DNA from: Listeria marthii FSL S4-120
Lineage (GTDB): Bacteria; Bacillota; Bacilli; Lactobacillales; Listeriaceae
Assembly: GCA_000183865.1 (NCBI GenBank)
Contig: CM001047.1
Coordinates: forward strand, 133,420-144,656
Direction: 5' to 3'
Length of the DNA stretch: 11,237 nucleotides
The position numbers and the translations under genes were made by a program. Numbering within the stretch: the stretch's first letter is position 1; each line of letters starts with the position of its first letter. The notes under the pieces are model-generated. The model made no database searches. It had not been told where the DNA came from and was given only the letters and a program-made list of their open reading frames with translations. This document shows, piece by piece, positions 6,739 through 11,237 of this stretch.

Positions 6739-7200
6739 CTAAAACTTCTTATAAACATCAATGGAATTACCAAAATTAATCAGATAGCCACCATAATCAT
6801 ACATTGGACCGTATTTATCAGCATAATGAGAAACGGTGTGGCGCAAAAATTCTTCTGTTACCTCTAAAAACTCCGCTACTTCAAAATATTCACGTAAACC
6901 GAGATAAAAGCACGAGATAATATCATCAAGTGGTATCAATTCTTCGTAGCCTTTACGACGAGCAAAAATTTCTTGTTTTTTATCCATAATTGTTTCTTGT
7001 TTGGTAATATTACCTACAGTGTATTTGTAATGCATCAATTCTTCTACTAAAATACAACCTTTTTGAATAGAAGACTGATCTTTACTAATAAAAATCGTCC
7101 CGTTTAAATAAAGACCGGGTAGTTTGTAAGGCATTTTTTCTTCTCTGATGGTTACCTCGTCTTGGTATTTATTCACTAATTTTTCGTACAATAAAATCAC
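6739..7200 (-). CDS. mpaR: ImmA/IrrE-type metalloprotease, monocin-locus anti-repressor
   Basis: This 153-residue protein is an ImmA/IrrE (DUF955) metallopeptidase. The metal-binding helix reads E53-E-L-M-H57, the EExxH variant of HExxH that I recall in many Gram-positive phage members. The second conserved helix is QEIFARRK at 76-83, which matches the E-x-x-A/FA pattern of the family. In ICEBs1 of Bacillus, ImmA cleaves the repressor ImmR. In L. monocytogenes 10403S the corresponding protease of the bacteriocin locus (MpaR) inactivates CI-like repressors under stress. The same position here, directly downstream of the XRE repressor, supports that role. Its GTG start overlaps the repressor stop by 4 bp, so translation is coupled and the amount of protease follows the amount of repressor. 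Loss of the first histidine leaves open a non-proteolytic, binding-only mode. Confidence 0.8.
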   Translation of the reverse strand: MILLYEKLVNKYQDEVTIREEKMPYKLPGLYLNGTIFISKDQSSIQKGCILVEELMHYKYTVGNITKQETIMDKKQEIFARRKGYEELIPLDDIISCFYLGLREYFEVAEFLEVTEEFLRHTVSHYADKYGPMYDYGGYLINFGNSIDVYKKF

Positions 7201-7532
7201 ATCCCGCGATGGAGTTTTTTCTTCATCTCTATATAAGCTAGAATATCCCGCATTTCTTCATCTGTTACATCATCATCTATATGGGCTGCAATTGTCACCA
7301 AGCGTTCATCAACAGGCGGTAAACTTCTTTCCGGGAAAAAATCATCTAATCGTTTGTTGAAGATTTTTGCAAGTTCAAATAAAACATCTTGATTTGCTTT
7401 TCGATCGCCATTTTCGTAACGGCTAATCGTTTGGCGAGTTGTATGAAGCTTTTCTGCTAAGGCTTCTTGATTTAAACCGCGTTCCTCGCGATACTGTTTT
7501 ATTTTATTTCCTACAAATTTATTTAACTCCAT
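7197..7532 (-). CDS. XRE-family CI-like repressor of the monocin locus
   Basis: A 111-residue repressor with an N-terminal HTH_3 domain: residues 6-64, with the recognition region NQEALAEKLHTTRQTISRYE at 21-40. The C-terminal half is short and acidic (DERLVT...HIDDDVTDEEMRDILAYIE) and lacks an S24 peptidase domain. It therefore cannot self-cleave with RecA like lambda CI and needs the adjacent metalloprotease for inactivation. GGAGGA 8 nt upstream fixes the start. It is divergent from lmaD, and the intergenic region holds three operator-like repeats, one over its own promoter. It corresponds by position and type to the repressor of the L. monocytogenes monocin cluster (lmo0114-like). Confidence 0.88.
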   Translation of the reverse strand: MELNKFVGNKIKQYREERGLNQEALAEKLHTTRQTISRYENGDRKANQDVLFELAKIFNKRLDDFFPERSLPPVDERLVTIAAHIDDDVTDEEMRDILAYIEMKKKLHRGM

Positions 7533-7707: not shown

Positions 7708-7751
7708 ACAACGAACTAGCATATTAACTTATGAGATGGAAGTGGGAATGG

Positions 7752-8180
7752 ATGGATAGAAAACTTTTGAAAGAAAAGCAAATCCAACTAATTTTTCAAC
7801 TAGAACAAGAAGAAAATCGATTTATTCGGAAACGTTTAATAGAAGAGTTGGAGTTTTTTGAAGCACTTGGGGATAGAGAAAAAGGCCTTTTAACGGCTGA
7901 GCAAAAGCTACTTATTTTAACACCTGATGAGTACCGTGAATATAAAAAGACTAAATCCGATGTGCAAATTAGCAAGTTGATTGGGGTATCAAGATCGTCA
8001 CTTGCCGATTGGAAACGAAAAAAAGGATTAAATAGAAAAAAGTCGCAGCCGGTACAGCAGGAAATGATTGAGGTGTTAGCTTTTCATTTAGATAAAACAG
8101 AAGAGGAAATTGGTCGTTTGCCGGCAGCTGCAATTGAGTGTCAGTATGAAGCCTATGTCATTAACGAAGCTCACAATTAA
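7752..8180 (+). CDS. lmaD: LmaD, phage-type regulatory protein
   Basis: The 142-residue protein is mostly helical and very charged. A predicted helix-turn-helix at about 69-92 (VQISKLIGVSRSSLADWKRKKG) is preceded by a helical N-terminus rich in E, K and Q that could be a coiled coil. It corresponds by position and by the following LmaC to LmaD, first gene of the Listeria monocin operon; its biochemical role has not been defined to my knowledge, but a DNA-binding regulator is the best reading. I chose the ATG at 7752 because GGAAG (7738-7742) lies 9 bp upstream; an in-frame ATG at 7731 would add seven residues (MRWKWEW) and has no ribosome site. It is transcribed from the repressor-controlled rightward promoter, 11 bp ahead of lmaC. 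Confidence 0.75.
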   Translation: MDRKLLKEKQIQLIFQLEQEENRFIRKRLIEELEFFEALGDREKGLLTAEQKLLILTPDEYREYKKTKSDVQISKLIGVSRSSLADWKRKKGLNRKKSQPVQQEMIEVLAFHLDKTEEEIGRLPAAAIECQYEAYVINEAHN

Positions 8181-8191
8181 GGAGTGATGGG

Positions 8192-8608
8192 ATGCAAGTT
8201 TTAATTTTACCGGAGAATAAAGATATCAATTATATAAAGACAGTTCAAGAAGTAAAACGATTTTTTGCGGATTTTCAGCGGTTTCGAGTGATTGCTGGCT
8301 TATCGAAAAAACCATTTTTACTTAGAGGCGGATTTTTGGAAGAACCGCATTTTGGCACATTGGGATTTTCTGCTAGACATAATAAGGAAGTAATTATGGA
8401 AGCGCGTTGGTTAGTGGAGAAATATACGGCGACGTTAAATCAAATGGACGATTTATATCGAAATATTTTGCTGGAGTGTTATGTGGAACAAAAACAAGAT
8501 GTGGCAGTGATGATGGATTTGCCATATGAAATAGCCCAGTTTAAACGCATCAAAAAGCGAGCAGTACTGGAACTGGCAACGATTATGGGGCTTTTAGTAA
8601 GGAAATGA
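8192..8608 (+). CDS. lmaC: LmaC, ArpU-family phage late transcription regulator
   Basis: A 138-residue protein resembling the ArpU family of Gram-positive phages, small regulators placed just before late genes and thought to activate structural and lysis genes. The pattern seen is a central conserved segment (ARWLVEKYTATLNQMDDLYRNILLECYVEQK, described only in outline) followed by a sigma-region-4-like helix-turn-helix: VAVMMDLPYEIAQFKRIKKRA. AAGGAG at 8179-8184, overlapping the lmaD stop codon, fixes the start, so the two are translated from one message. Position and size match LmaC of L. monocytogenes. Here it is not followed by lmaB and lmaA; a 324-bp gene-free stretch separates it from the lysis genes, which are its most probable remaining target. 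Confidence 0.78.
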   Translation: MQVLILPENKDINYIKTVQEVKRFFADFQRFRVIAGLSKKPFLLRGGFLEEPHFGTLGFSARHNKEVIMEARWLVEKYTATLNQMDDLYRNILLECYVEQKQDVAVMMDLPYEIAQFKRIKKRAVLELATIMGLLVRK

Positions 8609-8932
8609 TGATACTTTCATGATATTTTCAAAAACCCTTTTACCGTTAATATAAAAGTAAGCTAATTGTCCAGCAAGCGGATGACAATAAAAGCTGCGTC
8701 AGAATGAAGGTGCACCGATTTTCTGATAATACATGATGTTTTTACAAGAAATTTGTTTTTATTACTGGATACTAATTCCGTTGACATAAACAAATATTCT
8801 ATTTTGAAAAGTAACGTTCGGAGGAATAAATTATTAAGAATGGTCTTGACCGGATGTTGCTTTTCGTTTTGAAGGAGTGAATGCTTGGTGTTAGGCCAAC
8901 TGACGGTAATGTAATCAAAAAGGAGGTTTTCC
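8609..8932. other. Gene-free stretch between lmaC and the holin, probable deletion scar with late promoter
   Basis: No convincing gene lies in these 324 bp on either strand. In the L. monocytogenes monocin cluster this is where lmaB, lmaA and the tail structural genes would be. A weak promoter-like pair, TTTTCA (8625-8630) and TAATAT (8647-8652), 16 bp apart, sits 17 bp after lmaC and could be the LmaC-dependent late promoter. Two orphan ribosome-site-like sequences, CGGAGGAAT (8819-8827) and GAAGGAGTG (8871-8879), each precede only very short reading frames. They look like ends of lost genes. No transposase, direct target repeat or tRNA was found. Confidence 0.5.
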
Positions 8933-9355
8933 ATGGAAGTCGTACTAAAAATTGGGATTTTGGGATTTGGCGCGGTGTTTGGATACTTGTTTGGGGAAGT
9001 GGATATATTGGTAAAAGTGCTAGTGTGCTTTATTGTAGCTGACTATGTTTCAGGGCTACTCGCTTCAGGGTATCTAGGGGAACTTAGCAGCAAAATGGGT
9101 TTCAAAGGAATCGCGAAAAAAATTGCTATCTTAATTTTAGTAGCTATTGCGCATCAAATAGATTTGATTCTGGGAACGCATAATACGACGCGGGATGCGG
9201 TTATCTTTTTCTATTTGGCGAATGAGCTGATTTCCATCTTGGAAAATTTCGTTCGAATGGGAATGAAGGTCCCGGAAGTATTGAAAAATTTAATTTTGAT
9301 TTTTGATGCGAAATCAGGGGATGAGGAGGAAAAACATGACAAAAATATGGATTGA
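8933..9355 (+). CDS. Phage holin, TcdE/phage_holin_4 family
   Basis: The 140-residue protein has about four hydrophobic segments: residues 5-20, 25-46, 60-82 and 86-105. They are arranged as in the holin family that includes phage holins and the toxin-release protein TcdE of Clostridioides difficile. Diagnostic stretches are VCFIVADYVSGLLASG and the following ELSSKMGFKGIAKK. The C-terminus is acidic then charged (DAKSGDEEEKHDKNMD), a common holin tail. Holins form membrane holes that let the endolysin reach the wall. A very strong AAGGAGG 7 bp upstream fixes the start, and the 3' end overlaps the amidase gene by 20 bp, a typical lysis cassette. It corresponds to the monocin holin (lmo0128-like). 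Confidence 0.88.
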   Translation: MEVVLKIGILGFGAVFGYLFGEVDILVKVLVCFIVADYVSGLLASGYLGELSSKMGFKGIAKKIAILILVAIAHQIDLILGTHNTTRDAVIFFYLANELISILENFVRMGMKVPEVLKNLILIFDAKSGDEEEKHDKNMD

Positions 9356-9863
9356 TGCCGGTCATGGTGGCAAAGATCCTGGTGCAACTGGTAACAGCCT
9401 CGTTGAAAAAAACTGGGCGCTAACTATTGCGAAACAACTAGAGACAGAACTCGTTAGCGCTGGCTTTGAAGTAGGGATGACACGTACAAATGATACTTTT
9501 TTAGAGTTAAGTGAACGTGCAAAAAGAGCGAATAGTTTTAAAGCAGATTTGTTCCTTTCGATTCACTTTAACGCGGGTGGCGGTAAAGGTTATGAAGATT
9601 ATATTTACACGTCAGTTCCAGCTAGAACCAAGACAATTCAAAAAGTAATTCACAAAAATATTATGGCAAAAGTTACTAAACACGGTATACGTGACCGAGG
9701 GATGAAAAAAGCTAATTTTGCAGTGTTACGCGAAACTGCGATGGATGCAGTTTTACTAGAAGCGGGCTTTTGTGATAGTACAGATGCAGCAATTCTTAAA
9801 TTAAATACGTATCAGCGAGATTATTGCCTAGGAATTGTAGCAGGATTGAAAGAGATTTTTTAA
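9336..9863 (+). CDS. Endolysin, N-acetylmuramoyl-L-alanine amidase (Amidase_3)
   Basis: The 175-residue enzyme is a single zinc-dependent Amidase_3 domain that cuts between N-acetylmuramic acid and L-alanine in peptidoglycan. Zinc ligands are H10 (DAGHGG), E24 and H77 (LSIHFNA), and the catalytic glutamate is E142 (LLEAGF). There is no signal peptide, so it depends on the holin for access. No cell-wall-binding domain follows: the protein ends about 30 residues after the catalytic motif, whereas many Listeria phage endolysins carry a C-terminal binding domain. GAGGAGGA (9323-9330) supports this start within the holin gene; an in-frame ATG at 9303 is less likely. It corresponds to the monocin amidase (lmo0129-like). 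Confidence 0.92.
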   Translation: MTKIWIDAGHGGKDPGATGNSLVEKNWALTIAKQLETELVSAGFEVGMTRTNDTFLELSERAKRANSFKADLFLSIHFNAGGGKGYEDYIYTSVPARTKTIQKVIHKNIMAKVTKHGIRDRGMKKANFAVLRETAMDAVLLEAGFCDSTDAAILKLNTYQRDYCLGIVAGLKEIF

Positions 9864-9946
9864 AGAGCGACACAGAAGTAATTATTATGGAAATAAACTT
9901 TGTAATTTCAAAAAAAAATAAAACATAAACAACAGGAGGAACAAAA

Positions 9947-11218
9947 ATGACTGAACATGTAAAAGAATTTGATATTAAAAAAGCACAAGATAACTTAGCG
10001 GTACAGGTGAACTGTTGGGCACCGTTCCAATTTGTAATGATTAGCGATTTATACGTATATGGTGTTGAACAACCAGCGCTTACTAATCCAGATAACGCAA
10101 CCATTTACCAAATTGATAATAACGGAGAGGTTCGAGGTAAAATGCTTCTTATGGGGGGCACACATAACTCTGCGTATGGCGTAAAAACCATCGATGGTAA
10201 AGACTACATCTACGCTCCGATTCACACAGTTAGTGGCAATAAAGTAGCTCATAAATTTGAGTTTGTGAAAGATACAATAATTACCGAATCTTCTCCAAAC
10301 GCAACAAAATTAGGAGATTTCGGACAGAAAAAATCTTTTAATGTTAATATTGTGAATGATGATGTATTTGTTTTCACTCTATTAGAAGATAATACTGCAA
10401 CAGTAATGAAATTTACACTTGAGGAATTCGAGCAAGGTGCTACAGATAGTGCGATTAAAGTTGAGGTGGGTGATAAGGGTTATGGCTACCTACAAGGTTT
10501 TGCTGGGTTTGGCGATAAAGTGTATATTGCAGTTGGCCCTGGTGGAACTCCAAGTAAGCCTGGTAGTCAATGCTACTTGTACACACACTCCTTAACGGAT
10601 GGTAGCCTATACGATAAGCAATGGATTTCTTGGGGTACGGATGATGAACTCGGAGAACCGTTTAACCAATCTCACGAACCTGAGGGCATGGCCTTTTTTG
10701 TAAGTAAAACGGGGGAACCAGTCTTAGTTCAAACTGTGTTTACTGGTGGCTATGGTCCAGGTGGTGGAGCAGTCCAACGCCGTAATAAACTATATACAAT
10801 TACAAACTTAAATAATAGTGAGGACTTTGCGGCTAGATTTAACCGTAAAAGACCTTCGTCCGCAATGATTTATGAAGGTTCGCTTAAAGGGAATAACAAG
10901 GACACAGCATATATGACGCGTGATGTCTCCAACTACGAATATATTGTAGTAACATGGATGCATGGCGATGGGGTACGCCGCAATCAAAGTTTCCGTGTGA
11001 AAAATTTACTAGAATATTCACGAGTAGACCTTTCTAATCTTGTGCTACAAAGCGATGGATTTGCTACAGCTTACTACTTTATTGTTGACATTACAGGATC
11101 TCAAATGCGTATTCACGCTTCAAGAGCACGAAGAATGAAACCAACAGGCTGGGATGCTCTAGTTGATCCTTATGCAAGCTCTGTAGTCCTTTCTGTAGAA
11201 GGTTATGGTTTACGATAA
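9947..11218 (+). CDS. Beta-propeller receptor-binding-like protein (P68 RBP/TagC or helveticin J type), candidate bacteriocin
   Basis: The 423-residue protein has no signal peptide or membrane segment. Residues about 20-295 contain repeated beta motifs and stretches recalling the P68 RBP/TagC-like propeller and the class III bacteriocin helveticin J: GGTHNSAYGVKTIDGKDYIYAP (described in outline, 70-91), YGYLQGFAGFGDKVYIAVG (179-197), and SHEPEGMAF (242-250), close to the EPEG motif I associate with the propeller. Residues about 305-423 (YEGSLKGN...SNYEYIVVTW...YGLR) resemble the beta-sandwich at the C-terminus of many phage receptor-binding and baseplate proteins. AGGAGGA 6 bp upstream fixes the start; the gene lies 83 bp after the amidase with no terminator between. 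It likely binds a cell-wall glycopolymer; killing activity is only inferred. It could also be a receptor-binding protein for an unseen particle. Confidence 0.6.
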   Translation: MTEHVKEFDIKKAQDNLAVQVNCWAPFQFVMISDLYVYGVEQPALTNPDNATIYQIDNNGEVRGKMLLMGGTHNSAYGVKTIDGKDYIYAPIHTVSGNKVAHKFEFVKDTIITESSPNATKLGDFGQKKSFNVNIVNDDVFVFTLLEDNTATVMKFTLEEFEQGATDSAIKVEVGDKGYGYLQGFAGFGDKVYIAVGPGGTPSKPGSQCYLYTHSLTDGSLYDKQWISWGTDDELGEPFNQSHEPEGMAFFVSKTGEPVLVQTVFTGGYGPGGGAVQRRNKLYTITNLNNSEDFAARFNRKRPSSAMIYEGSLKGNNKDTAYMTRDVSNYEYIVVTWMHGDGVRRNQSFRVKNLLEYSRVDLSNLVLQSDGFATAYYFIVDITGSQMRIHASRARRMKPTGWDALVDPYASSVVLSVEGYGLR

Positions 11219-11237
11219 TTTTAAATTAAAATAAAAA

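Follow-up and report, generated by a model that had tools for sequence, protein, structure and literature searches.

Gene content of the locus

The window, by which we mean the whole stretch of 11,237 nucleotides analysed here, carries a switch formed by a CI-like repressor and the anti-repressor MpaR, followed by lmaD, lmaC, a holin gene, an amidase gene and a gene for a 423-aa propeller protein, and it adjoins a 5'-nucleotidase gene that lies across an assembly gap (Table 1). The surroundings, the switch, lmaD, lmaC, the holin and the amidase are common to the window and the Listeria monocin (F-type tailocin; ftb, lmaDCBA) at 84-100% identity, as measured by blastp with the genes of L067 as full monocin reference. 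The window differs from the full monocin in lacking the genes from lmaB through the tail receptor-binding protein (RBP), in an amidase without its C-terminal region, and in the additional 423-aa gene. Genes for tail tube, tape measure, Dit, Tal or RBP are found in 9 of 14 Listeria loci but not within the window, which indicates a monocin derivative and not a working monocin.

Table 1. Features of the tail-less monocin locus (positions in the window) and the 431-aa propeller genes
Feature	Position	Strand	Match or basis
MpaR anti-repressor, M78/DUF955-type metalloprotease	6739..7200	-	PF06114, E 1.7e-11; 99% to L067 (full monocin locus)
CI-like repressor	7197..7532	-	HTH_3, E 2.8e-19; 98% to L067
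lmaD, monocin operon gene 1	7731..8180	+	97% to L067; named by position after PMC6872733 (accessible text)
lmaC, ArpU-type regulator	8192..8608	+	TIGR01637, E 6.7e-37; 95% to L067
lmaC-lmaB intergenic, putative late promoter region, retained	8609..8884	+	promoter role presumed
Tail-deletion junction	8885..8914	+	direct sequence reading
Holin	8933..9355	+	PF05105, E 4e-39; TIGR01593; 100% to L067
Amidase, catalytic domain alone, 175 aa from ATG	9336..9863	+	PF01520, E 3.2e-44; 84% to L067
Propeller protein, stem-less RBP-platform type, 423 aa	9947..11218	+	
431-aa propeller gene	L087:4971-6266	-	
431-aa propeller gene	L088:4709-6004	-	
431-aa propeller gene	L089:5466-6773	-	

The first-pass annotation had described the propeller gene as following holin and amidase with no tail genes in the window, and had proposed a tailocin switch and lysis module; both descriptions hold, the second through the identity of these genes to the full monocin. 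It had also assigned the holin to the family of TcdE, in agreement with a score of 133.7 bits against TIGR01593 (cut-off 40.2), a family that includes TcdE. Its overall interpretation therefore stands for the switch, the lysis genes, the propeller and the missing tail, but not for a previously undescribed system, because the switch and lysis genes are those of the monocin and tail-less remnants appear in the accessible text of PMC3464598 and PMC9159981.

According to the accessible parts of the published accounts, MpaR is the anti-repressor for the CI-like repressors of both the monocin and a resident prophage (PMC6872733), and monocin release is served by a holin-lysin pair (PMC7076858). L. 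monocytogenes 4a L99 has kept 5 of 16 monocin genes, lmaDC among them, with lmaA and lmaB missing from both this strain and L. welshimeri (PMC3464598), and L. swaminathanii UTK C1-0015 carries an eight-ORF monocin without structural genes (PMC9159981); as far as these sources go, the tail loss in all three is like that in the window. The words propeller, receptor and baseplate are absent from the accessible text of PMC9159981 on the L. swaminathanii monocin, and in the limited open literature searched we found no paper describing the propeller gene. Tail-less monocin loci are a known kind of locus and a known form of decay, and the conserved propeller cassette is an unexplained, testable addition to it.

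The assembly gap (L002:4658-4757) starts right at the end of the window at 11237, and the 5'-nucleotidase gene lacks about 190 residues there, so the real gap must exceed its nominal 100. PADLOC, run on four proteins, returned nothing, and neither did Rfam at the gathering score.

Tail deletion among Listeria monocin loci

The 14 loci compared represent every genome among 25 Listeria genomes with lmaC at 77% identity or more. In the nine tail-bearing loci, lmaC and the holin gene are separated by some 7.7 kb of tail genes, which are missing in the window genome (G000) and in G014, G013, G001 and G021. The tail cluster of L010 matches PHROGs and Pfam profiles for a tail terminator (LmaB, weakly), the major tail protein (LmaA), tape measure, Dit, Tal and small tail or fibre proteins, including the 178-aa RBP. 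The first-pass annotation had held that tail genes directly downstream would speak against its reading; the relatives do have tail genes, but upstream, between lmaC and holin.

G000 and G014 have one common deletion junction with a single base different, where lmaB, after its first codons, passes in frame into the apparent last codons of the tail RBP gene, and this junction spares the intergenic region and the holin ribosome-binding site. By eye, the lmaC-lmaB intergenic region is near-alike in full and tail-less loci. The deletion in G013 has the same left edge as in G000 and G014 and a different right edge. G001 and G021, which have neither tail nor propeller gene, still have the switch and holin. 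Their persistence would be expected if these loci are plain remnants, in which MpaR's role in co-ordinating resident prophages preserves the switch and lysis genes and the propeller gene is a passenger, and the accessible text of PMC6872733 does describe MpaR as controlling other prophages.

Distribution of the propeller gene

Relatives of the propeller gene are present in 5 of the 60 genomes searched, the window's own included, with a single match each and at the same site every time; identity to the gene in the window is 97% in G014, 93% in G009 and 76% in both G013 and G018 (L. farberi). G009 and G018 carry the whole tail cluster upstream, which shows that tail-less loci are not its only setting. 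A survey of synteny across Listeria, as proposed in the first-pass annotation, thus places the gene always at the monocin site, but not always without a tail. Three contexts are represented: tail and amidase (G009), tail and broken amidase (G018), and amidase without tail (G000, G014, G013), with the switch and holin as the constant partners. None of the five copies has an internal stop.

The two tail-bearing loci, the late-operon position and a propeller resembling those of phage RBPs could mean that the monocin particle carries the protein as an accessory receptor-binding subunit, which at loci with a deleted tail is an orphan in slow decay. However, both of these loci also have the usual 178-aa gene for the tail RBP, complete, next to the propeller gene. 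A protein database search gave nine clusters with 297 sequences, and eleven clusters with 302 sequences after a profile search; the five of the nine with a named source are all Listeria, annotated as 'hypothetical', 'phage baseplate protein' or 'P68 RBP/TagC-like beta-propeller'. Short versions of 198-384 aa account for 12 of the 302 sequences and for six of the eleven clusters, two of these six clusters being labelled partial, and suggest that some copies may be decaying, as expected of an orphaned subunit. L. weihenstephanensis and L. aquatica, both outside the L. monocytogenes species group, have relatives at 73% identity (clusters P0005 and P0009), which may reflect horizontal transfer.

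Fold of the propeller protein

The 423-aa protein matches PF21311 (phage RBP platform propeller) above the curated cut-off and its predicted structure is of propeller type, in line with the first-pass description of a leaderless propeller of phage RBP/TagC type; the structure comparison relates it to phage RBPs, where an unrelated fold would have argued against that description. No secretion signal is present. The propeller starts at residue ~14-18 and aligns from residue ~149-162 of the phage RBPs, so that the ~150-residue N-terminal stem of the Staphylococcus phage RBPs (phi11, 80alpha, P68), which would serve for tail attachment, is absent, and this argues against a particle subunit. A long additional N-terminal part is seen in two relatives from prophages (557 and 656 aa). 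The Staphylococcus phage relatives target wall teichoic acid, which by analogy is the most likely target of the 423-aa protein.

Past the platform, structure comparison gave no good match to the phi11, 80alpha and P68 RBPs, and one row (P68 particle, 6q3g) extends to model residue 398 with an rmsd of 9.8. No domain could be assigned to the last ~120 residues. Foldseek on viral models returned diverse tail fibres, propellers and sialidases with TM at most 0.45 (best 50 of 1253) and is not informative. Solved structures were not matched by the sequence (E up to 1) or its profile (E up to 10), and a profile match between the C-terminal part and the monocin 178-aa tail RBP was not found, both profiles being shallow. 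A phage origin was sought by sequence and rejected: tblastn gave no match at E 1e-5 among 50,697 phage records, and viral contigs gave none with the single sequence or the alignment.

The first-pass annotation had read the protein as a single-protein, wall-targeting bacteriocin freed by altruistic lysis. A leaderless, lysis-linked protein that occurs without tail genes agrees with this, but profile searches recognised no killing domain, no immunity gene is evident at the locus, and Helveticin_J (PF17312) was not matched at E 0.1 (the genome search, also silent, is uninformative, as its 14 controls were silent too). Furthermore, three of the 25 Listeria genomes have, at a conserved housekeeping site, a free-standing PF21311 protein of 431 aa that belongs to the same propeller family, is of similar length and likewise stem-less, and has neither tail nor lysis genes adjoining. 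The existence of such relatives implies that a stem-less propeller alone is not evidence of a bacteriocin, and we consider this reading distinctly unlikely.

Selection on the propeller gene

Monocin remnants are commonly read as decay. The lmaC-holin spacer of G000 and G014, which contains the junction, differs at 22 of 324 sites, which indicates divergence after the deletion, unless recombination passed it on. In their propeller genes, 14 differences are nonsynonymous and 39 synonymous [dN/dS 0.09, binomial p 6e-15, assuming 980 of 1269 sites nonsynonymous], and dN/dS lies at 0.04-0.10 for the pairs computed, six out of a possible ten, which share sequences and for which dS is near saturation when G000 or G009 is compared with G013. 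For the other operon genes of G000 and G014, dN/dS is 0.00 (cI), 0.01 (lmaD), 0.12 (lmaC), 0.05 (holin) and 0.27 (amidase, with few changes, calculated on a longer ORF that starts at TTG and overlaps the end of the holin gene). The values for the propeller gene are not predicted by hitchhiking, and we regard the idea of a plain remnant with a passenger gene as very unlikely. The low ratio in a tail-less pair and the five uninterrupted copies also weigh against a decaying particle subunit, which we find rather improbable.

The C-terminal 123 residues evolve faster than residues 1-300 in five of six pairs (dN/dS 0.10-0.20 versus 0.03-0.07), as a bacteriocin might; in G000-G014 the order is reversed (0.05 versus 0.11). 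The flanks of G000 and G014 have dS of 0.74 (Crp-like) and 0.68 (M78), far above the 0.06-0.24 of the operon, and this implies that the locus moved between lineages. Recombination with other strains could maintain both the low dN/dS and the common deletion. From these sequence comparisons, the propeller gene appears to be kept by selection even without the tail.

The amidase and the exchanged cassette

In all five propeller-gene carriers the amidase stops after the catalytic domain and the C-terminal region is lost, whereas the nine non-carriers all encode a further ~67 residues, in G021 within a stop-broken frame. This C-terminal part had no Pfam match in the one tested and may bind the wall. 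The stop in G021 lies within the amidase frame of its tail-less locus (L070:5761-6438). In G018 an internal deletion affects the amidase (L012:13242-13391) but spares the tail cluster, the holin and the propeller gene; the retention of the propeller gene with a broken amidase argues against a need for an intact one.

Over the first 360 columns (holin), G000 shares 98-100% identity with G004 and G019, falling to 73-90% in the amidase; in G014, with the same cassette as G000, identity to G004 and G019 in the next gene is 87-99%. For the 5' half of the amidase, the species grouping is accepted (p-AU 0.54) and a carrier clade is rejected (p-AU 0.0098), but for the 3' half the species grouping is rejected (p-AU 0.00018) and the best tree unites the four carriers, with only 67% bootstrap. 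These trees include 12 of the 14 loci, with G021 (broken frame) and G018 (internally deleted) left out, and the split column was picked after seeing the identity profile. The conflict between the two halves indicates that the 3' half of the amidase behaves together with the propeller gene as a single cassette in exchange, and the association of the propeller gene with a truncated amidase may reflect no more than their being neighbours in that segment.

Transcription signals and a model for the locus

No terminator-like site was found in the amidase-propeller gap, and by eye a hairpin lies 3' of the propeller gene in all four relatives, with a clear T run in three. A promoter-like match at 9859-9888, directly before the propeller gene, makes co-transcription with the amidase uncertain, and promoter and terminator matches are no commoner than in shuffles.

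The gene content, the deletion, the selection, the movement of the cassette and the propeller-type fold are results of computation; co-transcription, release, target and effect of the propeller protein are what we infer from them. In the explanation that we favour, and to which we give an even chance, a monocin without its tail carries an amidase-propeller cassette that releases an autonomous wall-binding protein. A clean deletion would have removed the tail genes from the monocin locus, and recombination would have swapped the endolysin for the cassette with its shortened amidase and free-standing, stem-less RBP-type propeller. Upon SOS-type induction, MpaR would remove the CI-like repressor, as presumed from the published monocin, and LmaD and LmaC would switch on the late operon, the role of LmaC being suggested by the ArpU family. 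Holin and amidase would then lyse the cell and free the leaderless 423-aa protein, which would bind Listeria wall glycans, probably wall teichoic acid, without a tail.

The lack of tail attachment and of a secretion signal, the position at the end of the late operon, the hairpin and the three contexts point to a lysis-freed protein acting alone on walls, and an intact, selected gene where the tail is gone, kept also with a broken amidase, fits such autonomous action. An autonomous wall-binding role, either masking receptors against phages or tailocins or replacing the lost amidase C-terminus, is more likely than direct killing. Only tentatively can the locus be regarded as a tailocin turned into a selected, tail-less 'lyse and release' system, in which a lone binder of wall teichoic acid acts as killer, mask or half of a split endolysin. 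If this conserved, exchangeable amidase-propeller cassette was selected after tail loss, a tailocin is able to carry a separate payload in its lysis half. This is testable with one purified protein, which could yield a soluble Listeria wall-binding reagent.

Free-standing propellers at other sites

The 431-aa proteins are annotated as 'teichoic acid biosynthesis protein' or 'phage baseplate protein', and one matches the P68 fibre platform directly (E 2.3e-15). Identity of the 423-aa protein to the 431-aa proteins is about 20%. TagC/DinC of B. subtilis, for which the open literature search found no paper, is another free-standing, stem-less protein of the propeller family and of similar length. 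The profile comparison of the 423-aa and 431-aa proteins gave a probability of 0.58% although the alignment is collinear, both profiles being shallow. The genes adjoining the 431-aa gene are cdaA- and malP-like. A conserved palindrome-like stretch, ATCAGCTGAT, lies shortly upstream of the 431-aa gene start and is not a LexA-type box; the two LexA-type patterns searched for are absent from the window and the 431-aa loci. Within the class, PF21311 is found in 9 of 398 sampled genomes, the window's included; four have frames of 596-644 aa, three of one genus have 353-380 aa, and one is a weak match under the cut-off.
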